DNA of 64,000 nucleotides, from positions 27,460,720-27,524,719 of the forward strand of contig OY720346.1 of assembly GCA_963082975.1 (NCBI GenBank), written 5' to 3'. The notes beneath the pieces were generated by a model. It saw only the letters and a list, made by a program, of their open reading frames with translations. It was not told the DNA's origin and searched no databases. Origin of the DNA: Labia minor. Lineage: Eukaryota; Arthropoda; Insecta; Dermaptera; Spongiphoridae. Both the position numbers and the translations under genes were made by a program. This document shows positions 40,847-60,873 of the stretch, one piece after another; within the stretch, counting starts at the first letter, position 1, and every line of letters starts with the position of its first letter.

Positions 40847-41338
40847 GCATAACGCTAATTTCATTTATGAAATTTATAATAGAAAAAGTTATCAAACAAA
40901 TAAATTTTTTTTATAATTTCTAAATAAATAATATATTAATAAAAAAAAAAATAAATTTAAAATAAAAACAAGAATCTAAAATTTCCAAAAGAACCTTTTA
41001 AAATTATATAAACTATAATATTTACTTTCTTAGTTATAATAAAATTGCACCTCTATCCTAAATATAATTTTACTAAATCTTGTATTGTTGTAAATATACT
41101 AACATTTAAATATTTATATTACATTTAAATCCAATACAATCAATTCAAATGGATTACTCATAATTATTAATTTAATATGATTGCACAATAATAGATTTTA
41201 TAAATACAAAATATGTTGATTCAGTTATCTTTTATCATTTAATCATCCGAATGTATTTTATATATATATTATCTCTCATCTTATAATTAAATGAAGAATA
41301 AGTTGAATTTATGCAAATTAATCAGAATTGATTGAGTG

Positions 41339-41350
41339 TGCGCATGCGCA
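41339..41350. promoter_or_regulatory. NRF-1-type site in the alpha-mannosidase promoter/5' UTR
   Basis: TGCGCATGCGCA is a perfect palindromic match to YGCGCAYGCGCR, 121 bp before the start codon. It is set in otherwise AT-rich DNA where such a word is not expected by chance. It is likely a promoter-proximal activator site of the gene. Confidence 0.55.
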
Positions 41351-41470
41351 TTTGTATATATCTATGGAATCTGGTTTCGATCCTTTTGGTGTTTGTGGGT
41401 GTTTGTCTGTTCACTTCACTTGCCGAACTCAATCGGCATCAACGGCATCAACATTACAATAGCCATTAAA

Positions 41471-44400
41471 ATGAATATATCATTAGTTTTGTTAATATTA
41501 GCTCTAAATTTAATTAATATTCATTCGAAATCTATACATATTAAAAAAAATGATCGAACAAAAGGTTTGCCACATGCATCAGTTTGTGGCTATGATGTAA
41601 GTAAAATATTTATTATTTAATTTACATGAAATAAAATAATAATAAATAATATATTATATAAAATGAAATTTCAACTAATTATTTATTACATTTTCTTTAC
41701 CTTGACTTGTTTATACTGTCATTTTATTTTAATTTAATCAATTTTTTTAAAAATAATTTATAACTAATATCTTTAATATATGGTATTATAACTCAAATTA
41801 AATGTATAGTCTTCGTAATTTCAATAATAGATAAGCACTTTATTTTTTAGTAACGAAAATGGCACTTAAATCTTATTTATACAAAAAAAAACAATCATTC
41901 AATTGTGTGAAAGTTGTTTTTTATTTTTATACTAAAAAATTAAAAATGTAGATATTTTTTTAAAGAAATATTTAAGAAATGAAAGTGAAAAGATCCTCCT
42001 CCCTCTTATATGGATGACCAAAGATATTTTTTAATTCAAATATTTAATTAATAGCTGATTTAACAAATAGATGGCAGAAGTATGCATTTTTTTATTGTTA
42101 TTTGGGGATGAAAAAGGAAATGTACTTATATGAAAATTACAATGAGAGGAGCATCACACTACTTTCATTTATGAAAATAAAAATAAACTAATTAATTATT
42201 ATAATTATTAAATTTTATTTGATATATTTTTAGAACATTAAAATTAAATTTTGTTTCTATTTTTAAATTTATAATTTTACCTAGGTGTTTGAAAATTATT
42301 TTTTTATTATTGTGTTTTAGAAAATTATATTAATTCAATTTATTATCATTTTTTTAAGAAAAACATTAATGACCTTTCCTTGAGTGAATCAATTTAGATA
42401 TAGAGATGAAATAAATCTGTTTACAAAACGTTTTTATAAAGTTTAATAAATTTAATAAATGTTGAAAAAATAACAAATTTAAGCCGCCAATTCAGTTTCG
42501 TCAAAACTAATTAAAATATTTCTCTCATATTTTTAACCGGTTTTAATATGTATAGTTCCATTAATATCAAATTTAATAATTGAATCAGAAATTATAACCA
42601 TTTATATATTATTTTTAGTAAGATATTCACAAATAGAATAAAATAATGAATTAAAGTCAAATGAAACTGGTATCATGTAAATGACCTAACAATGGACTGG
42701 TTTCTGAATCCCACTGAACATGTTAGGCAGTGGCGTACCTAGGGGGGGGGGGGGGGGTGCGGTCCGCACCGGGCGGCACTTATCTTGGGGCGGCATTTTT
42801 TATATTAGTTATAGTTGTAAAAAGCAACTTACTCATTTCATATTTATTTTTTTTCTTTTTTGAATAGTAAATGATTATTATGATTATTATAAGTTTACTA
42901 TTTGATTTATATAAATTATGATTAACTATATGATTTCGAATATTATTCCTCGGTGTATATAAATGCATTTTAGTGTAAATTTTGAATTCTAATTCCAAGA
43001 TCAGGATAATAATTTTATTTTATTGTATTCATTAAAATTGTTGAATTCGTAAACGCATCTTTACGATTTTGTTTGGCAATTTTTCCTAACTAAAATTTTT
43101 TGATATCAGTTTATAAATGTCATTCTTTTGAAAAGTTTATATGATTACTTTGAAGTGATATACCAATATTTTTTTAAATCATCGATTTTTCTTTTGAAAA
43201 GCAGGGCCGGCGGAAAAAATATAAATATAAATTTGAGAGCATTATACACGATTTTTCTAGTATGAAAGCTAGAAGAGTAAATATTATATTAATATGTTTA
43301 CGAGTGCATACAAATATGTGTAAAAAATTTACTCTGTGTATTAATTAATATTGATTAAATAACTTAATAATTTATTTATAAGTATTAATTTATAAAAACC
43401 ATTATTTGATTGACTTATAATAAAAAGGGCGGCAAACTGGAGATAGTCCCGGGCGGCAAAAGTTCTAGGTACGCCACTGATGTTAGGCCTATTTTAAATT
43501 TCGATTTGATTAATTATCTATTTCTAGAAAATCTTGTTAATCGATGTCAATCAATTTTAACAAATTATTTTGAATATTATATTATTATATGTGATCAAGC
43601 ATATTTAATATCAGAGTTGAATTTAATTATTATTTTTTTATTATTATTCACAGTCTTGTCCTAAACCTGTAACTGGAAAATTAAATGTTCATTTGATTGC
43701 TCATACCCACGATGATGTTGGCTGGCTTAAAACAGTTGATCAATATTATTATGGAGGTAGATAAAAAATATTTATTATTTTATTACAAAATAATCAACAT
43801 TTGTTCAATTTATTTATACATTTATTGTTTGTTTAGCAAGAAATAATATACAGAAAGCTGGTGTTCAATATATCCTGGATTCGGTTGTACAGGAACTTTT
43901 AAAAGATCCATCTAAAAAGTAAATATGTAAATTTTTTATAGTCATTTTGATTGTAAGCATTTATATAAGAATATTCTAATACAAATACTATCTATAGCTT
44001 AACAGGAAATAAATTATTTAATCAAATAAATTAACAATTTAGGTGTAAGTTAACTTTGACTATATTATCTAAGCATAGTATTATTCAATATTCGATTTTA
44101 ATAATTCTTAATACCTTTTCATTAAAGAATATTCTCTTTTCTAATAAATTCATTTGTGTAATTTTTTCATTTTGTTCAGTAAAAAATTTATTAATGAATG
44201 TTTTCGATTCATATAATAATAATTAAAAAAAAATATAATAATAATAATTGTAATTAATACTATTATGAAAAATTTATTTTATATTATTTAAATATTGAAT
44301 GAAATTAAAACTTAGAAGATAAAATTATCATTATATATGATTATTTTTTGTATTATGATATTAAAATCATAATAGGCCAGGACAACAAAAGAACTGACTT

Positions 44401-47400
44401 TAATGAATTATATAATAAAAATATAAATTTAAATTTTTAGATTTATATATGTAGAATCTGCTTTCTTTATGAAATGGTGGCAAGAACAAGATGATCAATT
44501 AAAACGACAAGTTAAGGATTTGGTTAACTCAGGTCAATTGGAATTTATTGGAGGTGGCTGGTCAATGAATGACGAAGCTACAACACATTATCAATCAACT
44601 ATTGATCAATTCGCATGGGGACTCAGGTTGGTTTAAATTATTTTTCATTTTTATTTACATTTTCTTTTATTGCAAATGTATTATAAATACTTTTGAACAT
44701 AGTAAGAAAATATTTATTTATTAGCTCGTTAATTAATATTTTTAATTTATTTATTTATTAAGATTCATTATTTAATATTTTATTTTACCAAGATCTAATT
44801 TATATCAGGGAAGAAATGCTTATAGTAGCTTTTTTAGGGTTATCATTATATATGCTTATCAAATATTAATTTCTTGGAAAATATAATTTTAATTTAATAA
44901 TATTAATATATATATATAATGTATCATAAAAATTGATATAAATTTGAAAGTTATACATTTTTTCTTATGCCAAATTAACATAATTGAAATGATTTTCAAT
45001 TAATTATTTGTTTAAAAAATGCAGCGATTTAGTTAATTTAAATATATATATATAATCTTGATATTATCTTAACATTAAGTGCATGGATTTATAATAAATG
45101 TAAACAATTAGATAAACATATAAACAAAAATATAATAAAAAAATAATCAGTGATTTGCACTGGCAAATGTTAAAGTGCTGTCTTTGATGAAGATAATACT
45201 CGGAAATAAATAAAATAAAATTCAAATGTAAAATAATCTGATACTAATTAAATAATAATCATCAACTAATAAACTTTTTAAAAATTATAATTTTATTGAA
45301 AAAATAGTTTAATTTCTAAGAATAACTCCATATTTAAGAAATATTTTTTTGTATTACTCTTTTATAAAAAAAGATATTAAAAACCTATGACCTAAACAAA
45401 ATAACTTAAATGACATTTTAATTAAACAATCCATTTTTTCTTTTCAATATTATGAACTATTTGAACAGAACAAATTTGTAGACAAATTTTTAAATTATAA
45501 ATAATAATAAGTGACCGGAAGCTTAGCCGCGCGGTTAAAGTGTCTGGTCCGCCGACTCGAGTTCGAGGGATCGAACCTCGGCGAGTGCATCGATATATTT
45601 AAATAAAAATAAAAATAATAAACAATTCTGAGAAAACTGGCTAAATGGAGATATATTCCGAAAAAGCCAAAGAAAATTTACCTTCTCAGATATTTCAATT
45701 TACAATTTTTGATTGGTACTATTTAACAATAGATTTTTAAAAAATAAAATTAAAAAATATATAATAGATCTAAGTTACAGTTTTTATTTAAAAACTCAAA
45801 ATACTAGTAAAATCACACCCACACACAATTAGTATTATTTAAAGAATATTTAAATAATTTTGTCTTACTTTTTGAAACTTTTAATTTTAAATTATTTATT
45901 TTTTATTATAGAAAACTTAATGATACTTTCGGTTCTTGTGGACGACCTCGTGTTGGATGGCAAATTGATCCATTTGGACATTCAAGAGAATTTGCATCTA
46001 TTCTTAGTGGTATTGGTTATGATGGCCTCTTTTTAGGAAGAATTGATTATCAAGATAAATCATATCGTCTTGAAAATAAAGAAATGGAACAAATATGGTT
46101 GTCAAGCGAAAATTTAGGTAAATTCAATAATTTACAATATAATTATATGTATATTTAATTGTATAATTTTTATTGAATTTTCTAAAAAGGTAAATCTCGA
46201 GAGTTGTTTACTTCCGTATTATATAATAATTATGCACCGCCACCAGGATTTTGCTTTGATATTTTATGTCAAGATGAACCCATTATTGACGACAAACGCA
46301 GTCCTGATTATAATGTTGATGCAAAGGTAAGCATATAAAAACATTAAAATTGGTGGCTAAAAAGTTAATATTATAAAGTTATTATATAGGAGTACAAAGA
46401 AGTATCTACCGTTTTCTATTCAAAATTACAAATTTATTGTAAAAAACGGTCGAATCAACGTGACTATGCTGGCTGGGTCCCAATATTATCTTAAAAATAA
46501 GAAAACAAAGAAATATTAATTTTTAACTATTAATTATAAATTCCACTCGTTGTATGAATAAAAACTACATCCTATTAAAATGAATAAATAATTTACTGAT
46601 AGAGTCACTAGGGAATAAATTTAAAATTTGATATTTGTTTAAAATTCTTGAAATTAAAATTGATAATATCTACACAATTATTTTTTGTTTTTAAAATATT
46701 TTAAATTAAATTATTAAATTATATTTATTAAACATAAGTAATTTCTAGCCATTATACACGTGTATATGAGGGCAATTCACAAAGTAGGTTACGTTTTGGA
46801 ATTAAGATAAAACTAGTACAGTAAAATGTTTTATATTATATACATTTGAAAGAGAAACTAGAATACTATTTTTCTACATAATCGCCAAAAAAGTTGAGAT
46901 ATTTATCGAAACGATGAACGAGCTTCGAAATTCCTTCCTCATAGAAATCCGCCGGCTGAGTGTTGAGCCAATCAGTCACGGTCACCCGGAGATCGTCGTC
47001 GTCAAGATCAATGAAAAAATTAGAGGAAACTGTCGTTTCACCATAACCGAACTTTCCTTCAGTTTTCCGCAAATTTCATGCACTTTATTGTACGAAATTG
47101 TTTCTCAAAAGTTAGGCTACCATAAGTTTTGTGCCAGGTGGGTACCAAAGCTTCTGACAGACCATCACAAGGGTCAGCAAATGGCTGCCTCTTTGTCATT
47201 TTTGGAGGCCTACGAGTACTACGGTGATTCATTCCTTGATCGAATCGTAACGGGAGACGAGACTTGGGTGAAACAGGTGACGTGTTAGACGGCGTATTTC
47301 TATGAGGAAGGAATTTCGAAGCTCGTTCATCGCTTCGATAAATGTCTCAACTTTTTGGCGATTATGTAGAAAAATAGTATTTTAGTTGCTCTTTCAAATG

Positions 47401-50400
47401 TATATAATAAGAAACAGTTTTGTCTTAATTCCAAAACGTAACCTACTTTGTAAATTGCCCTCGAAAATATATTGTAGTTAACAGTAAAACAATTATGAAG
47501 GATATTTGCTCTAGAATATATATATATTTATATAAATTTAGTCTAATTTTCTAAACTTGATAATAAGTACATTCATTTTAATAAATATGTTTGTATGAAT
47601 TAAATTGAAATACAATTAGGTGAAAAACTTCACGAAATGGGCTCTCTCCCAACATAGGAGATATCGATCTAAACATGTATTAATTACGATGGGTGGTGAT
47701 TTCACTTTTCAATCTGCAGAAATATATTACAAGAATTTGGATAAATTAATCAAGTAAGAGTATCTAAAATGAATGAAGAATGTCTGATAGTATTATTATA
47801 ATAGAAATAGTATTAAATCTAACATTATCTACTTGTATTTCTTTCTTTGAAAATGGAATATCTTTTTTTTCTTCTATTTTTCATTTCCAATTCTTTTCTT
47901 TATGTTTGTTAATTTTTGTGTTATAATGAATGATTTCATCACAATATAATTGCACGCATGCAGGTGGAAGCATTCCTGAATTGGACACAACAACAATCAA
48001 ATGGTTATCGGAGTAAAAATATAGCAATTACAATGGGAGAGGATTTTCATTTTCAGGATGCTAGAATATGGTTTAAAAATCTCGACAAATTAATCAAGTA
48101 AGCCAACTTTTCAGTTTAAATGTTGGCTTGGCGAGCGAATTATTTTATTATTATTTTAAATTTTGTTTTTATTTTAAATTATTTATCAATAGATGAATAG
48201 ATAATATTAACGAAAGTATTTGTTTATATATATATGTACTGTGTTTTGATAAAAGTATTATCAATTTAAATTATTATTATCAAATTCTAATATGTTTTGA
48301 TGTAAACATTTTAATGAGAGAAATATGATTTTTTTACTAGGGGTCAGTGAAATCTATACATATATCAAAATTATTAAGTTTATTGATCATTTAATAATTT
48401 ATTAATTTCCAATTTTTTGAGTAACTGAGCTATTCTAGACGTTAATAAATTTCGAATCCAATAGAAAAAAATGAATTTGATTATTTTGAAAAATTAAAAT
48501 TTTCTTTTTCATTCACTGTAAAATTTTTATCTTGAAGGTTAGTAGAACTCTTCCCTAAATAATTATATATGGGGGTCTACATAAAAATTGATCTTGGAAG
48601 TATAATTGAATTTAAACTTGTCTTGACCTAAATAGGTAGAAACTTTTATGAAATGGGTAATTGGATTACAACATTTGTTTCGGACTAAACATCTTATCTT
48701 GCCATTGGGGAATGACTTCACCTTCCAATCTGCACATATGTGGTACAAAAACACCGACAAACTAATCAAGTAAGAGAAAAAAATGGCATGGTTTGTTTTT
48801 TGTTTTTCAAATGCAATTTGCTATGAGTCTTGATTTTAATGCACGATTAAAAAAATTCACTTCTATCAGGAATTGGTATGTAATTGTGTGTGTATATTAT
48901 ATTTAGATTAGCTAGAATTAATATTTAGTTGAATGTTCGCTCGCCTTGTCTAACTACATCGCTAATAAGAATAAACTTATTAATTAACAAAATAACTATA
49001 AATTTCTTTAAATAAATAATTTTAAGACAAAATTTTATATTGGAGATTAATTTTTTTAAGTATATTATAATTAATTTTTCAAATAATGTTAATAGCTTCA
49101 ATTTTTGGTCAATATAAAGTATAATGCATAAAAAAACCAACATTTATAAATAATAATTAATTTAATACTTTAATAATTTTTTAATTTTAATTAATTATTT
49201 TCAAGGTTGAATTGATTATTTTAAATTTAATTTAAATTTTGTTTCTCTTTAAAAGAAATACTTTTAATTAAATTTATATAGTATATTTATAAAATTATTT
49301 TACTTTTGTTATTTTTTTTAATTTTTCAAAATAAAATCTGTATAATTATTAGTATTACTAATGATATTATCTGTCATTGGTAGTGGTTTTAAATAAATTA
49401 TTATTAAATTAAATATTACTATTATGATATTTAGAAAAAATGTAAACATCGAAAATAAAGTAATATTCATTTTATATAATAAATTTCTAGTAATTGATTG
49501 AAGTGAGTGAGGCATATTTTAAATTACAATAAACAGTTTTAATAATATTAATGACGGCACGGACATGGACCACTTATCATGACAATAACAAACTTGATGA
49601 ACTTGAATTTTTTTGAAATATAATTCACTCAATTTGAAATTAGAAATTTGAACGAATCAGGAAATTAATTTAAAAATCAATAATGAAACGCAGAAAATGT
49701 ATAATAATAAAGTATTTTTCAAAATAATTTTTTATAGGAATTATTTTTTCATTTATATATTATTTTTTATATTTGAATATGTATTGATAACTTTTATCAT
49801 TTATTTATTATTCAAATTATAATTTGATACTGATTGATAATTCATAATCATATATTTAAAATTATAATCTTATATTTACTTATATAGGATACTTGATATA
49901 ATTATGCTTCAATTAAAAATTACTTATTTAAATAATAAGTGAAACATTATATTTTTTCTTTTAGATATGTAAATGAGGCACAAGCGAAAGGTTCTTTAGT
50001 TAATGTATTTTATTCCACTCCATCATGTTATCTTAAAGCTGTAAATGATGAAAAATTAAGATGGAATACGAAATCGGATGATTTCTTTCCATATGCAAGC
50101 GATCCACACAGTTATTGGACTGGTTATTTTACTTCAAGACCAGCAATAAAATATTTTGAACGTCTTGGCAATAACATTTTACAGGTAATGACTCTTTAAT
50201 TGAAATAAATATATAATTCTTAAAAATATAAATTATAATAAATAATAAAATAATTCAAAATTATCAATAATTTAATATATTTAGATAGCAGCATCGTTAT
50301 TAGCGCCTAAATTATAGGCAACTAAAAATCAAATAACAAAACCGTTGTTTTATTCTACGATTATTGCTATTATTATATATTAACATGCTCGATATTTGGG

Positions 50401-53400
50401 AATAAATAAGGAATCCAAACAACAAACAATTATCAATTTGAGGAAATTTAGAACAAAACCTCATAAGTTTCTTAAAAGAAGAGCATTTTCATAATCATAA
50501 GAGAAGATAAATTAGATGAAGTTGTAAATAAGAAAATAAATTAGATAAAGAATGAGAGCAATATATTATATTTATAAACACAATTATAGGCTTTTTTAAT
50601 CATGCTTATGAACATATTTAAACAAATATTTGATAGTCTCTTTTTTTTTTAAAAATGTTTAGAAAAATTCCTAATAAACCAATAATAAACATAAAATGCG
50701 ATCAATGTCAAATCTCATTAAGAAGTTGATAAGATCTCAAATTTAAATAAACCTATGAATTTTATGTATCTATTTAACTACATCCGTTGAAGCATGTATT
50801 TATTGATTTTACTTATTTTATAGATATGTAAACAAGTGGTGTCCCAAACTCAATTAAGTTCATCTGAAAATGAAGATATTTCTAAATTAAGAGAAGCAAT
50901 GGGAATAATGCAACATCATGATGCAATTACAGGCACAGAAAAACAACATGTTGCTGATGATTATGCCAGGATATTAACAAGCGCCATTAACGAATGTCAT
51001 CTTGCTATCAATTCTGGACTCAAGTTAATATTTAATTAATAATAAATTATTTAATTATATTCCCTTTGTTTTTAAATGAATCCTTCTTTGATATTTGTCA
51101 ATAAATGAACATAATCTTTAAATTATGAAAATAAAAAATATTTTACAGTACAAGTCACTTTTTAATAACTTATTTAGAGATAATTAAATTAAAATAATAA
51201 TATTTTTTAAGAGTGTTTTCTCCTGTGAAATTATAATATAATAATAATATTTTTTTATTTCAGTAAATTATCAGCAGCGACTAAAGAATCACCAAAAATA
51301 ACATGGAATTCATGTTTATTATCAAACCAAAGTTCATGTGATATTAGTGAAAACTCACCTAAATATGTGGTAACAATATATAATCCAATGAGTAATTTGG
51401 TAAATGAAACTATTCGTCTTCCTGTTCCAAACTCTGATTATTCTATTTATCATCCAAATGGTGATTTCATAATTGCATTTAATTAATTATTTTTTTTTAA
51501 TATATATTAATAACTAAAGATGTTTATTAATTTTTTTTTAATAGGTACTCAGATTATAGTTGATGTGTTTCCTATTCCATCATCTGTTTTAAGTTTAAAA
51601 TATCGTAATAGTAATGCCACTCATGAACTTGTTTTCCTTGCTGAAAATCTTCCCCCACTTGGATATCGTTCATATTATGTTGTCCAAGAGAAAGGCGCTG
51701 ATGGTAGCACATTACCAGCACAAGAAAGTCAAGATAATTTCATTAGTAACGATGTGTGTTTCAAATCCTATCTTTATAATAAATAAATAAATAATATTAT
51801 ATTTATATTTTTTTATTCTTGTTTAGAAATCAGAAGTTAAATATGATCCAAATACTAATGAAATAACTGTAACAAAAATTAATGGAAATAATCTTGATGT
51901 AAAAATCATGTCTAATTATTATGAAGGGTTTGTGGGAAATAATGAAGAATTTGTTAATCGTTCATCAGGAGCATATATTTTTAGACCTAAAACACCATCC
52001 GTTGTACCTTTAACAAATGAAACAAAGACAATGATTTACAAAGGACGTCTAGTTGAAGAAATGCATGTCACATTTAATTCGTGGTCAACTCAAGTTATCC
52101 GTGTACATAAGTAAGTTAAAAAATTAAATAATTTGTGTAAAGATATAATTTTTCGACCTTTAAAGAAATATTTAATAAAAATAATATTTAAAATCTACAT
52201 ATTTTAAAAAAAATTAATTTAATTGGATATGATTCGGAAAATAAAGCTTTAGAATTAAAAATATAATTCGATGTACGTAAATTTTTTAGAATAAAGTTAA
52301 AAAAATTATATTTAAAAAAAAATGAAAATTTGTAACAAACGAACTGGAGAGCAGGTGGATAAGACAAAAATAAATCCCTGTGAATAGAGAAGTTTAGTGA
52401 TCGTCATTGGTAACCCCAAATATTAATATTATATTATTTTTCTTTGAAAGTTTTATTTTTTAAAACATAATTAATTCTATTTTCATCAACCCAATATTTT
52501 ATTATATATTTTCATATTTTATTTTTCTCTAAATTTATATAGATATGATAATGAAGTTGAAGTGAATTGGTTAATTGGGCCAATTCCGATTGAAGATGAT
52601 ATTGGAAAAGAGATAATCGCTCAATATAAAACTGGACTTGCCTCAGAAAGTATATTTTACACAGATTCCAATGGTAGAGAATTAATTAAAAGAACAAGAA
52701 ACTCTCGTCCTACATGGCAATTGAATTTAGAAGAACCTATATCGGGAAATTATTATCCAGTTGTAACACAAATTGGAATACGTGATCAACCAAATAATCT
52801 TGGTTTTGTTGTGGTAACCGATCGAGCCCAAGGCGGATCCTCCATTGCCGATGGACAAATTGAATTAATGTTGCATCGTCGTTTATTGCACGATGATGCT
52901 TTTGGTGTTAGTGAGTCATTAAATGAAACCGCATTTGGAGATGGATTGATTGTTCGTGGAAAGCATTGGTTAGTTGCTGGCTCATTGACACAACATCCAA
53001 CTGTTCGAGCTTTAGCAAGAAAGATCACACAAAAGAAAGTTCTTGCACCATGGGTAAGAAAGTACAAACAAATATATTTTTGTATTAATAAAAACAATAT
53101 TAATTATATTTTTGTTTCTTTAGACTTTCTTAACATCAACTGATCTTAGCTTGGCCGAATGGTCTAAGAATTATTATATGGAAAAATCAGGTTTAAAAAA
53201 TTCCATCCCTGAAAATGTTCAAATTCTAACACTTGAACCATGGAAAAATAATTCGCTTTTATTAAGACTTGAACATATTTATGAAAAAGGAGAAGATATT
53301 GAATTAAGTAGAACAGCAACTGTTAATCTTCAAGTATTTCTTTTTTTTACTTTTTTTAATTCTTTTTATTAAATTGTTCTCTATTTAATTCATTTATTTC

Positions 53401-53706
53401 AATTTTTAGGGATTATTTGTTAATTTTGGAATTAAATCAATAAGAGAAACAACACTTGATGGAAATCAATGGCTCTCAGATAATAATCGTTTAGTTTGGA
53501 ATATTGAAACACATTCTGTTCAAATAAAGCGTGCGAAAGAATTTCTTAATGCTGGATATATTAAGAAGAGATCAATAGATGAAAATTGTGAAGACAAACA
53601 TCCACATAAACATAAAATAAGCAGTAGCAAACAACATGATGCAAACGATTTAGAAATCACTTTGGAACCAATGGAAATTAGAACATTTGTACTCGATTTA
53701 AATTAA
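41471..53706 (+). CDS. MAN2B1: Lysosomal alpha-mannosidase with a triplicated exon
   Basis: Fifteen coding positions: 41471-41596, 43654-43756, 43837-43918, 44441-44626, 45912-46117, 46190-46326, one of three alternatives (47620-47753, 47964-48097, 48636-48769), 49965-50184, 50824-51023, 51264-51460, 51545-51753, 51827-52110, 52543-53053, 53124-53333, 53410-53706. The 1033-residue product starts with a signal peptide ([20 protein letters not shown]). GH38 landmarks are all present: HTHDDVGW (zinc ligands, 59-66), WQIDPFGHS with the nucleophile Asp185, Gly-x-Asp-Phe with Asp307 in the alternative exon, and [10 protein letters not shown] (zinc His430). It hydrolyses alpha-mannosides of N-glycans in lysosomes. 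The ATG at 41471 is chosen because the upstream in-frame ATG would bury the signal peptide. Confidence 0.97.
42728..43479. mobile_element. hAT-type MITE in alpha-mannosidase intron 1
   Basis: Left end CAGTGGCGTACCTAGGGG with a 16-base G-tract; right end CTAGGTACGCCACTG. Both flanks are ATGTTAGG, a perfect 8-bp duplication. GGGCGGCA words repeat near both ends (GGGCGGCACTT, GGGCGGCAAAA). It is the same family as 5811-6137 but longer (752 bp) and non-coding. Confidence 0.92.
45511..45625 (+). repeat. tRNA-derived SINE (copy 3) in alpha-mannosidase intron 4
   Basis: GCTTAGCCGCGCGGTTAAAG (A-box region), GAGTTCGAGGGATCGAACC (B-box region), GCGAGTGCATCGATATATTT and an (AAATAAA)n tail. It matches 23490-23605 on the other strand. 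Confidence 0.75.
46766..47463. mobile_element. Mariner-derived fold-back in intron 6 of the alpha-mannosidase gene
   Basis: Left arm 46766-46970 and right arm 47285-47463 are near-identical inverted copies (GAGGGCAATTCACAAAGTAG at the outer left). Both arms carry the 3' end of a mariner transposase ([15 protein letters not shown], then NFFGDYVEK and stop), pointing in opposite directions. Between them 46990-47280 encodes the N-terminal half ([29 protein letters not shown] with the first catalytic Asp). The centre, with the second Asp, is missing. The element is thus a rearranged, inactive mariner able to form a ~175-bp RNA stem. Confidence 0.88.
47620..47753 (+). CDS. MAN2B1: Alternative exon 7A of alpha-mannosidase
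   Basis: Acceptor TACAATTAG|GTGAAA, donor ATCAA|GTAAGAG; 134 nt, entry phase 0, exit phase 2. It encodes residues 281-324 starting [19 protein letters not shown] and the active-site block [20 protein letters not shown]. The variable residue before the catalytic Asp is Gly. An N-glycosylation sequon (Asn283-Phe-Thr) is present. It is 25 of 44 residues identical to 7B and 22 of 44 to 7C. Confidence 0.93.
47964..48097 (+). CDS. MAN2B1: Alternative exon 7B of alpha-mannosidase
   Basis: Acceptor CACGCATGCAG|GTGGAA, donor ATCAA|GTAAGCC; 134 nt with the same phases as 7A. It encodes [19 protein letters not shown] and [20 protein letters not shown]. The residue before the catalytic Asp is Glu, an acidic side chain next to the active site. 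The sequon is shifted to Asn286-Trp-Thr. No stop, frameshift or damaged splice site. 19 of 44 residues are identical to 7C. Confidence 0.93.
48636..48769 (+). CDS. MAN2B1: Alternative exon 7C of alpha-mannosidase
   Basis: Acceptor TTGACCTAAATAG|GTAGAA, donor ATCAA|GTAAGAG; 134 nt, same phases. It encodes [19 protein letters not shown] and [20 protein letters not shown] then DKLI. The residue before the catalytic Asp is Asn, the preceding Met is replaced by Leu, and there is no sequon. It is the most divergent copy at its N-terminal half, yet it keeps Gly-x-Asp-Phe, FQxA and KNxDKLI. Confidence 0.92.
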
Positions 53707-56700
53707 CTTGGCAAATTATTTATAATTTCTATTTTGAATTTATAAATATATATAATAATATAACTATTTTTAATAAATAAAAATGTTTAATGAGTCAAAC
53801 TACTGATAATAACTCTATTTTTAATAAATAAAACAATTTAATATTTTTCAAGAAATTAAATGTTTATTATTCTTCATACCATCCTTTCAAACTTACTATG
53901 AGAACAGTGCTCTTACAGGTATGAATAGATTAATGTTTGAAAATACTTTCTACTTTTACTATTTTATTGAAAAATTTTAGAAAACAAGAAGCAAATGAAT
54001 CTACTTTTTTAATTTATATATCTATCAATAAATAATTTAAATTAATTCATGACATTTTTAATTTAATTTTAATATATTAAATCATTTTAAAGAAAAATAC
54101 AGGAAAAGTTAAATACATTTTTTTTAATAAACTAAAATTCATAAAATAGATAAAATAATTAATCATAGAATTTAATATAATTTATATAATCTAAATATAT
54201 ATTTTTTTTTTAAATTATTACTTATTTTAAATGCGATAATGTAAATATTGGCAAGTTCCAGTAGTCGCGTCCGAGCGACTAAATTCATGTTGGCCTATTT
54301 TACTGGTTCCACATGCTTGAGGCGTTACAACCATTAACTCAAGTGGAATTCACCCTTAAAATCCACATGTAAATAATGACCAAAATATTTTGATGGGTCG
54401 TTGGACCCGAGAGTTTACCCCCTTCCCATCGCACCGACTGCAGGCCCATGCGGACGAATTAAAATAGTATTTTTGACGTTCGCATAAATACTGAAACTTA
54501 CCCATAATATTTAATACTTAAAATTTGGCAAAATAAAAAATGTTCATAACTTCCGATGATATAGAAATTACTCTAAAAATTATTTATAATATGCGTTCTT
54601 ACATATTATCAAAAGACTTGAGGTTTTAAAATTCTAATTGTAAATTAGACAGGAGAGAAAATAAAAAAAAAAATAATAAAACTGAAAATCTTTATTTTTA
54701 AAATTTTAACTACATAATATATATATTTTTATAAAATATATAAAAAAAGTTTTTGTGAACCATATTATTTTTTTTTAAAACAATCCCACTTTTTCTAATT
54801 ATAAAAAAAAGAAAGACATCTAAAAAAATATACAAATAATTATTATTCATATGGTTCTAGAAAATTCAAGGTTATAAAGAAATTTTACGAAAAATCTATA
54901 TCTATAACATATGTATTTATATATTTTTTAAACTGAATATTTACAAGAATTTTTTCTCTTAAAATATAAATTAATTTATCTATTAATTAAAAACATTTCA
55001 ATGCAATTAGGCTTATATAATATAATTATTATCCAAACAGCCTTTGTCTAGCGTCAAGAAAAAGAATGAAGCAGTTTTTATTTTATTTATTTATAAAGTG
55101 AAGTGAATGAATATTAATGAAATACAGCCTGATATATTAATATGGGCTGTAAGAGAAGACTTAAAAAAAACATTTAAACAGTTAATAAAAAGATAAGATA
55201 AAGGAGTGCATTTATATAGTATACTTATATGTAATAATTGATCATTTAATTTTCAGTTTTATTGAGATATTATAAATGCTCAATTTTTAACCATTATCAA
55301 TGGCACTGATGAATTAGTTGTTTATAGTTTATATTGTCGCTATTTTTTGTTACCTATTTATTTTCCAAAACATTTTTTAATTAATAATCAAATTCTTATT
55401 AGTTTTACTATAGTTTCAACAAACAACTCATTGATAAGTGAATTTTATACAATTAGAATTATATTAATTATTTAATGAAAAATATTTATTTATCTTAAAA
55501 TTTAAAATAAATATTTAAAAATTTTTTTCTATCAATCTGAAAAATTAGTTGGTTTGGTTTTATATAGGATTAATTTAAATGACTTTCTTGAGTAGAGGTT
55601 TGTCTATTAAAGTATAGAACTTTTCAATACAAAAACGACAGTAATGAAACCTGATTGTTTTTTTATCCACTTTTGATTTTTAAGAATTAAACTGTTCTTT
55701 TCTGTAAAAAACTCATAAATGTGTATTACTTTCTTTAACAATAATATAATAATTAGTGACAAGCAATATTACTGTAGTTATAATTGTTCTTAAATGATCA
55801 CACAATTTCTATATATCTACCTTTATCTTAACATTAATTAGAGATTTCAAGTAATGGTTATTATTTATAAGAGTATAAATAACTTGAAGCAGAAGAAGAG
55901 AAAATAAATTAAAATATATCTTTTAAAAAAAATCATAAAAGATATATTTTTCGTTCGAGTTTAAATATTTTTTTTTTTCGTTTTTATTTATTTTTTTTTT
56001 TCATTTTTTTCTTATTTTCAAATATATTTCCTTCTCTTTTTTAAAATATAGTTGGTATATTTTTGTATGAGAGTGATTGTTTGATTGTTATCAAGAAAAC
56101 TTTTTATTTGTAGCAAAGATAGGTGATTCAAAAATAAATAAAAAAGCATCCATCACTTCACATATCACTCTGGCCGGGCCCTGAAACATCAAGACAATAT
56201 ATATTATAAATCTTGTATGGTTATTCTTTTAATATTGTGAAATAATTTGATTTCTTATTTTTATTAATATTTATTTAATAATTTTTGGTAATTAATCAAA
56301 ATTTTATTTTATTTAATTTATTTTTTTATTAAATTTTGATTCTAATTTTAATATTTGATACTTTTTATTTTTAAATTTATGAAATATATTTTCTTTTAGT
56401 TAATTAGCCAAATTGTTTTCATTAAATAATTTAATGACAAATTCATTGATCAATGTTTGACTTAAATGAATTAAAAAATTGTTATAGAAATTTTAATATT
56501 TATTTTAAACTACTAATATAGTTTTGGCAACAATGTTACACATGCTAACAATCTGTTTGAAAACGACAAAAATCTACATAGTAAATATAGGAACTATTGT
56601 ATTAATTATAAATTTTTTTAATAATTTTTGGTAAAAAAAATTGGATACATACTATCATGCCCTGTGTTAGTTAACAAAAGAACACATTTTATTATATCAA

Positions 56701-57604: not shown

Positions 57605-58724
57605 TCATGAAGGTGTTGCAGGCCGTGAATTTGCTTCTGTCACTGCCACAGATAAATCTTTGCCACTAGGAATCCGTGGACACCGAGCCCAGAGTCCATT
57701 AATTGCCCCTGGAGCATATCCTGGCTTGCTATGCTCAGAGAGTAATCGAAATGCTTTCGATGGCATGATTTCATATTCAGAGAAATTATCATAGTAACAA
57801 CCTTCAGGAGGTGGTGGACCGGTCGCCCAACTATCATAATAATTGCAATATTCATTATAATATGGATGCATTGGTTGTGTGGTTGGATGATGTAAACCAA
57901 TCGTTTGACGCGGATTATTTTGATGATTACTGGAATCTTCTGAACCGGTTGAACTCATTGTATCATATGGGTCCATATCTTCTTGAAGGATACGCAACGC
58001 TGCAGCATGAAGCTTCGCAAGTGGTAATTTCTTTAATTTCTTGCCCTTTTTCCTATGTAATAAACTATGAACTAATTCTTTAACTAAACGATCAGTGATT
58101 GTTGGTGAACCTGGAGATGTAACGCCCGACGAAGAGGACTGACTTTCAGGATCACTTGAATGAGCATGTAATGGCAATGTGAGATGTTCTTTTCTATCTT
58201 TAAGTACACCTACGCCATCTTCATTTGAAACCGATGAATAAAGGGCACCATCCTCATCTTCATCTTCAGTAGAGCCACATTCCTCTTGTAATAATTTAAA
58301 TAGGCGCGAATGAGTAGATGCTCTTTGACAGATACGTTTCATTTCACTTGAATCACTCTCAGTGTCGGAAATATGGCGGGAAACATCATCAGACGTTACA
58401 CCAGAATCATCTTCACTTTCTTCTTTATTCATATCTTCTTTGCATTCATCTTTATTAGGTCCATTTTGTTTCGAGGCTTCTTCAACTACAAGATCTATAA
58501 TTTTATCAACCAACGTTGATTTCTTCTTAGATTTTACTTCATTATCTTCATCAGATTCTTCATCATCTTCATTTTCTCCTTCATCATCTTTATTATTAAT
58601 GTCTTTATAAATATTATCATTGTCATATTCACTATCTTCATGTTTATTTTCATTTTTTATCACCTTTTTCACAGCACCAATAAATGTTTCTTCCTTATTA
58701 TTAAAATTATTCTCCTCGTCCTCC

Positions 58725-58756
<32 letters not shown>

Positions 58757-60873
58757 CTCCTCCTCCTCATTATCATCTTCATCATCATCATCATTTTCCT
58801 CTTCTTCTTCATCTTCTTCTTCACTATCAGTTTCATTTCCAGTATTATTTGTTATACTAATTTTATTTACTTCTGAATTTTGAACATTAATAATCATTTT
58901 TTTATTTTCATTATTCTGAATATTATCATTATCTTTTTTAAGAACATTTTCTTTAACTTTTTCATCTAGATTTATAACTTTATCATTCATAGTCATTTTT
59001 ACTAGATTTTGGTTTTCATTTAATTTCTTTTGATTCTTTTTTATATTAACTTCAACTTCACTTTCATATTCTTCTGATGTGTCATCGTCAGATGACTCAG
59101 ACTCTTCTTCTTGCACACACATATTATAAATTCTATCTACCATAATTTCACTTTTTGTTTGTGGTAATTGTTGTATTTTTTTTGTTTCAGATATTTTCTC
59201 TGTATTATTTTTGGATGTTTCGATTACAGTTTGAACACTTGTGCCACTTGAATCTTCTGGATTAGTACGATTAGGTAATGATATACGAATAGAGACACTT
59301 TCTTCATCTGAATCAGTTGCAGTTTCATATATATCATCATTTGAAATTTGACTTTGCGCTATACTATCACAAGAGGCAGTAGAAATGATACTTGCATTAG
59401 AAAGATTTTTCGATATATTATTATTACGTTCATTTGGTTGAGGTGATGGTATTGAAAATGTGACAGAAACTGAATCATCAGTTTCTTTATCATCGCTCTG
59501 AATGTTTACTGTTTGTACGTTATTATTATTATTATTATTAAGAGATCCTTTTGATTTGGTGCTTTGTATAGCTTTTGAACTATCTATTAAATTTTCTTGT
59601 TCGGCTTTGGATCTTGTGTCTTTAGCAATAGAAGTCTCTAGAGATTTTATTATTTGTGGGGAAGTTTTGCTTTTTTCAACTCTTTGGCTATCTCCTACAA
59701 TTAGTGTTGTTACTTCTTCATCATTTTCAGAACGGCTAAATTTTAATTTCAAAGGTAACCGAACAGTAACCGTAGCAGAATCTCTTTCTGCTTGATCTAA
59801 ATCAACATCACTCTCTTCTTCTTCTTCTTCATTATCTAATGTAGCTGTTGAACTTTCATCTTCTGAAATCGATCGGCCACTACTTAAAGTTTCATTTGAC
59901 TTTGGAACTTTTCTTATAGATTCCACATCAGAATGTTCTGATTCTTCAAAAATTACACTTAATTGATGAGGAATTTCATTTTGATTTTCAATATATTCTA
60001 TTTCTTCTTCAGATTCTACTTCATCTTCTTCATCTTTATAAACACTTGATTCAGAGGATTTAGCATTGGATCCTGAGTATTCATCTGTAGCATCCTCTTC
60101 TACCTCGGTATCACTATCAGTTTCTTCCTCCTCTTCTTCCTCTTCACTGACATGATTTTCATTTGATGGTTGGGTAATTACTATTCCAGGTGTTTTGGTC
60201 AATTCTCGAGAAATAGGCTGTTGTTGCTGCATGATTTGTTGCTGGTATTGTTGATATTGCTTATTTAATTCTGCAGCCTTTTGGAAACGTGCTCCATAAT
60301 AGGACATTTCATCTGTAGATGAGTATCCACTGTATTCATCGTCACTTTGACCGTAACGACTTGGCGGTCGTTGATAAGGATGTCCAGGGGGTGGAGTAGG
60401 CGAAGGATGATAACCATAGGGTGGATAAGGAGGTGGTGGATATCCATAATAAGCAGCATACATGGTATAAGGATCCCCCCAGAATCCTGATGGTATGGGT
60501 GGTTGTTGTTGAAGTATTCCTGTAGGACTCTCTGAACCCGGGGGTGGTGGCAGTGGAGGCGGTGGCAGTTGGCCATAATAGCCCCACCATTCAGCTGGCC
60601 AATAGGGAGGTGGGATTGGTGGGGCCGTATATGGGGACTGAGGCCAGTTAGGGGCAGAGACAGGGGTCTGGGCAAGGGCCGGCGTTGTAACGTCCGGCGC
60701 TGCTACAACAGAGCAAAAAAATCTTTCTTGGTCCACTCTCCTGTCGCAATCGAGGATATATTTATTTTAATTATTATTTTAAACCCTTTCTCAAAAAATT
60801 ATGAAGGGTTTTAAAAAAAAAAAAAAAAAATTAGATTTTTTATCAAAAAATATTCTTTCAAAGGCACTTAAAA

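Follow-up and report, generated by a model that had tools for sequence, protein, structure and literature searches.

A lysosomal-type alpha-mannosidase gene of Labia minor carries three tandem versions of exon 7, probably spliced as mutually exclusive exons

A single lysosomal alpha-mannosidase (LAMAN) gene of the earwig Labia minor contains three tandem versions of its exon 7, and the sequence makes it probable that tandem exon duplication within this gene has produced three mutually exclusive exons. We propose that the spliceosome would join exon 6 to one of the copies 7A, 7B or 7C and this copy in turn to exon 8, that only messages holding one copy would yield enzyme, the others being shifted in frame, and that the versions would have the catalytic acid/base Asp in common and differ in what surrounds it. 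The gene would then most likely yield three enzymes with the same retaining chemistry and an altered grip on the substrate. That all three copies are spliced in, that their splicing is exclusive and regulated, and that the products differ in substrate preference or pH behaviour is what we infer from the DNA.

The window, by which we mean the entire 64 kb analysed (contig C4:27460720-27524719), contains the following features of the gene:

41471..53706, + strand: complete lysosomal-type LAMAN (GH38) gene of 15 exons, recognised from its splice sites, single open frame, Pfam families and PDB match
46190..46326, + strand: constitutive exon 6, ending in phase 0 (...NVDAK)
47620..47753, + strand: exon 7A, residues 281-324 plus 2 nt
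47964..48097, + strand: exon 7B, of the copies the one most like the sole exon 7 of the C5 paralogue (26/44)
48636..48769, + strand: exon 7C, with PLG before the catalytic Asp, like Golgi-type enzymes
49965..50184, + strand: constitutive exon 8, completing the split Lys codon left by any exon 7

The 15 exons were placed by eye via their splice sites, and the reading frame, the AG/GT borders and the stop were then checked. Whichever single exon 7 is included, a product of 1033 aa results. Five Pfam families scored above their cut-offs in the full isoform A (PF01074, PF09261, PF07748, PF17677 and PF21260; among them Glyco_hydro_38N, 38C, the middle domain and a LAMAN-like domain), and PF01074 was matched in isoforms B and C, of which residues 1-398 were scanned. 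In a PDB comparison the first 464 residues, taken with exon B, matched bovine LAMAN chain A (E 2e-117), and alignments place both the nucleophile Asp in DPFGH and the acid/base Asp (human D196 and D319). By these matches the gene belongs to GH38 and is, as the original prediction had said, an alpha-mannosidase of the lysosomal (MAN2B1) type. By eye, its intron 1 holds a mobile-element-like stretch (42733-43480) with matching inverted ends around GTGGCGTACCTAG, and its intron 4 a tRNA-like stretch (45510-45600), perhaps a SINE; ARAGORN found no tRNA in the window. On the - strand, 57605-60766 is an open frame of 1053 residues, rich in acidic runs and prolines.

The cassette is real and lies where it had been predicted, at 47620..48769. 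Each copy is 134 nt long, stands between an AG and a GTAAG, opens with a GTR codon (GTG, GTG and GTA in A, B and C) and ends in ATCAA; all three run from phase 0 to phase 2 and, as claimed, are free of in-frame stops and frameshifts. As 134 is not divisible by three, joining zero, two or three copies shifts the frame and leads to an early stop: at codon 284 when exon 7 is skipped, at 330 for AB, at 326 for AC and for BC, and at 330 for ABC. Full-length enzyme is thus encoded by single-copy messages only, and all three of these give the 1033-aa product. Among the 44 residues, A and B share 25, A and C 22, and B and C 19 (43-57% alike); the differences counted (19, 22 and 25) span exactly the predicted range of 19-25. 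A repeat search found a three-copy DNA repeat of exon 7 that ends at the donor sites, copy-to-copy tblastn comparisons against the window and five other loci gave E values between 6e-11 and 1e-13, and with the bovine LAMAN segment as query the copies came up at 9e-11 to 6e-12. At intron composition an open frame of 44 codons arises by chance with P about 0.014, and 148 of 3104 windows of 132 nt are open in the cluster introns joined end to end.

Prediction of mutually exclusive exons relies on length, splice sites, frame and homology (PMC3228551); on the fly X chromosome, according to the same source, such features also occur in 90 of 16,180 exons that are not mutually exclusive. The array described here combines tandem arrangement, equal length, homology, compatible splice sites and phases, and a frame that is open with one copy and with one copy only, all of which upholds the mutually exclusive reading first put forward.

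How far the duplication extends was examined at the locus and in the 604-Mb genome. Neither further copies of exon 7 nor duplications of other exons were found: tblastn at E up to 10 revealed no fourth exon 7 in 46327-49964, and the other exons of the gene had no second copy at 41000-54500 (E up to 0.1). Genome searches with exons A and C (E up to 10, only the best candidates being scored) led to five places each, namely the copies A, B and C plus one site apiece in two LAMAN paralogues; exon B was sought in the genome only as part of the full-length protein. The paralogues are two further LAMAN-type genes, to which a protein search of the genome gave matches across C5:68072992-68084736 (g5) and C9:26338015-26347642 (g9), and both have a single exon 7 of 134 nt with identical borders. 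A PF01074 search returned 16 matches in at least five GH38 loci: the three LAMAN-type genes and two loci at C5:74.32 Mb and C2:93.34 Mb, which carry the motif PLGDDFRY as in Golgi enzymes. A search for relatives in prokaryote contigs gave 40 pattern matches, of which tblastn confirmed 0. As a side observation on the same 604-Mb assembly, TTAGG x5 has one exact match (C1:100213409-100213433), a hint that the lineage lacks TTAGG telomeres.

These data make it highly improbable that the array is an assembly artefact in which exons of different genes have been joined. All copies lie in one contig, they are only 43-57% alike, and an exact match to exon A, and likewise to exon C, occurs at a single place in the genome. 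Moreover, A, B and C have in common F30, at which both paralogues, bovine LAMAN and jack bean have Y; this fits a duplication inside this gene.

If tandem duplication has created exclusive exons, the splice signals may tell how a copy is chosen. Two features of the introns concerned are:

47819..47905, + strand: candidate distant branch point and pyrimidine tract of exon 7B, within a 153-nt AG-free zone
46768..47462, strand not assigned: foldback insert resembling a transposable element, in intron 6 before exon 7A

Compared with 21 constitutive sites (13 from this gene and 8 from the paralogues), the donors of A, B and C are strong, outscoring 19, 18 and 19 of them, and the acceptors are weak, outscoring only 2, 0 and 1. 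The single exon 7 of g5 also has a weak acceptor (-5.99; 4.89 in g9), so that acceptor weakness alone is no proof of exclusive use. Exon B stands out by its AG-free zone of 153 nt, against 52 nt for A, 35 nt for C and 16-98 nt for 20 other acceptors (this gene's exon 8 and the paralogues' exon 4 being left aside); of the 2499 gaps between AGs in the window, 13 are as long. This zone contains CTAAC (47819-47823; candidate branch A at 47822) and, at 47861-47900, a tract with 36/40 pyrimidines, one of six such on the + strand of the 64 kb.

Several ways of enforcing exclusion were considered. The candidate branch A is 142 nt from exon B; its distance from donor A, 69 nt, exceeds the steric threshold of <50 nt between branch point and donor (PMC7969005), which leaves steric exclusion of A-B joining unsupported; a CTGAT 34 nt from donor A is an unlikely branch point, an AG intervening downstream of it. 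Incompatibility with U12 splice sites is rejected, all three donors being GTAAG. Docking/selector RNA pairing, sought in this one species as a common docking site pairing with all three introns, did not rise above dinucleotide shuffles (60 per layout): in the two layouts 51/60 and 43/60 shuffles were equally strong. The intron 6 insert has arms 93-96% complementary in three adjoining pieces of 70, 69 and 47 nt, and by eye it holds a mariner-transposase-like remnant; we count this transposable-element-like insert among the points against the mutually exclusive reading.

Exon 7 varies more than the exons around it. Between this gene and the C5 paralogue, exons 4, 5, 6 and 8 share 47/61, 50/68, 33/45 and 55/73 residues, whereas copies A, B and C share 20, 26 and 21 of 44 with the exon 7 of that paralogue; the C5 and C9 paralogues share 21/44 in this exon. 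Codon models of exon 7 group A with C, the three top-ranking of 15 topologies leading the other 12 by 6 lnL units or more, and give an omega of about 0.09 with saturated synonymous change. The copies have thus diverged long ago, under purifying selection on average. Branch tests against omega = 1 were not significant for A, B and C (2dlnL 1.62, 3.11 and 2.61) and significant for g5 and g9 (4.03 and 7.57), but in this first model such branch-specific tests are uninformative because synonymous sites are saturated.

The main competitor of the mutually exclusive reading is that no more than one or two copies are in use, the rest being a duplicate exon that died recently and has kept an intact appearance. 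We consider this unlikely, and a second model, in which a neutral branch may gain stops and intron base composition, speaks to it; its variants are not nested and are compared by lnL differences only. With all branches selected lnL was -680.93. Letting one copy evolve neutrally gave -683.14 for A, -685.07 for B and -683.48 for C, i.e. losses of 2.2, 4.1 and 2.6, so that the decay of A or of C alone costs little. The test on a single copy has low power, as the same treatment of g5, whose exon 7 is its sole one, lost only 4.7 units (-685.62). When A and C were both neutral since their split the fit was 15.5 units worse (-696.48; -695.83 with their common stem also neutral), and with A, B and C all neutral it fell to -700.54. 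At least one of A and C has therefore very probably been constrained after the A-C split, and the recent death of one copy is excluded only weakly.

The coding signal likewise leaves some room for a dead copy. In bits per codon, A scores -0.007, B 0.244 and C 0.003; the 14 other exons, all constitutive, range from 0.13 to 0.59, which places A and C below every one of them. None of 518 intron windows reaches B or C, and the highest (-0.0) is about level with A. The weak acceptors point the same way as this low signal. Against a dead copy, each of the three has retained the exact 134 nt, the open frame, both splice sites with a strong donor, and the catalytic motif.

Conservation at the protein level separates the proposed exclusive exons from a further alternative, in which the extra copies are poison exons and the array sets the amount of enzyme rather than its kind. 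The stops at residues 284-330 that follow from skipping and from AB, AC, BC and ABC joining are what such a device would produce, but a conserved protein sequence would be needless for it. We used four LAMAN-type outgroups (the two paralogues, bovine and jack bean) to define the family-invariant positions, and A kept 12/15 of them, B 13/15 and C 11/15, against 8-13/29 elsewhere (one-sided Fisher p 0.0005-0.016). With this excess, and an omega of 0.09, a purely quantitative role is very unlikely.

The original prediction made no mention of what the swapped segment holds: the catalytic acid/base and two substrate-site positions. In the human enzyme D319 is the general acid/base (for the roles of D196 and D319, see PMC11898060). 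The catalytic DF is kept in 3/3 copies, and its Asp, residue 307 here, aligns with human D319. This numbering, here as for the other positions, depends on a presumed bovine-chain offset of 49, which also yields Ser318 and Gln321 as in PMC13204073. In the holding site of the fly Golgi enzyme, according to that review of inhibitor selectivity, the M4 mannose is bound by Arg343, whose place in bovine LAMAN is taken by residues such as Leu272 and Gln321; the Golgi pair Asp270-Asp340, it adds, corresponds to lysosomal Asn262-Ser318. Position 318 is Gly in A, Glu in B and Asn in C (Asp and Gly in the paralogues, Asp in jack bean), and position 321 is Thr, His and Thr (Asn and His in the paralogues, Gln in jack bean). 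Both count among the 19-25 differences, and 321 does not separate A from C. A further peculiarity of exon C is PL at a site that reads TM in A, B, both paralogues, bovine and jack bean; this PL matches the motif at both Golgi-type loci of the genome. As aligned, the exon swap leaves the catalytic residue in place and alters what lies around it, from which we infer an altered specificity.

It is tempting to go further and to speculate that the choice of exon switches linkage preference, such that one gene covers the N-glycan bonds that mammals divide between MAN2B1 (M4) and MAN2B2 (M5). Each exon would then shape the holding subsite (318 and 321) anew, exon C in the direction of the Golgi-type PLGxDF. 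Flies are without a direct MAN2B2 homologue, and which of their enzymes removes M5 is described as uncertain (PMC4006722). We regard such a linkage switch as doubtful.

If exclusive exon use holds, the gene is a natural experiment in glycosidase specificity, in which three 44-residue variants are set into a constant scaffold of 989 residues. It would offer natural variation at 318 and 321, positions reviewed as differing between lysosomal and Golgi enzymes (PMC13204073), and would help in testing which enzyme takes off the core M5 mannose in insects. Exon duplication in one gene would here do what gene duplication did in Drosophila.

The original prediction knew of no such cassette in this family, and we too found no alpha-mannosidase with one among the open-access matches listed. 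The string "mannosid" is absent from the main text of PMC3228551, PMC3303723 and PMC3923563, and as a word start from that of PMC6071210. Judging from the sequence, these are very probably mutually exclusive exons in a family for which the open-access literature listed describes none.

The insect clusters of Dscam1, Mhc, 14-3-3zeta and MRP1 have the same general design, tandem homologous internal exons of which one enters each message, but they belong to different protein families and use competing RNA pairing (PMC6071210), which was not detected here. The vertebrate OGDH exons 4a/4b offer a second comparison: OGDH is also an enzyme, and its downstream exon is preceded by a distant branch point, a long pyrimidine tract and a long AG-free zone, a layout that the sequence before exon B, with its candidate branch point, resembles. 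OGDH has two such exons, with human branch points 25-41 nt from the donor, whereas there are three here and the candidate lies at 69 nt (PMC7969005). Switching of an active site by exons is already known, if rare: nine catalytic-site switches by mutually exclusive exons are counted in the data set of PMC7954323. Among these, the exclusive exons of fly CG42249 touch the catalytic site as ours do; in ours, the catalytic Asp itself stays the same and it is the residues around it that change (PMC7954323 for the fly exons). Another parallel is Drosophila LManI-VI, the same enzyme subgroup likewise diversified within an insect. Drosophila has six separate LAMAN genes (PMC4006722), whereas Labia has three LAMAN-type genes as found here, one of them with a multiplied exon 7.
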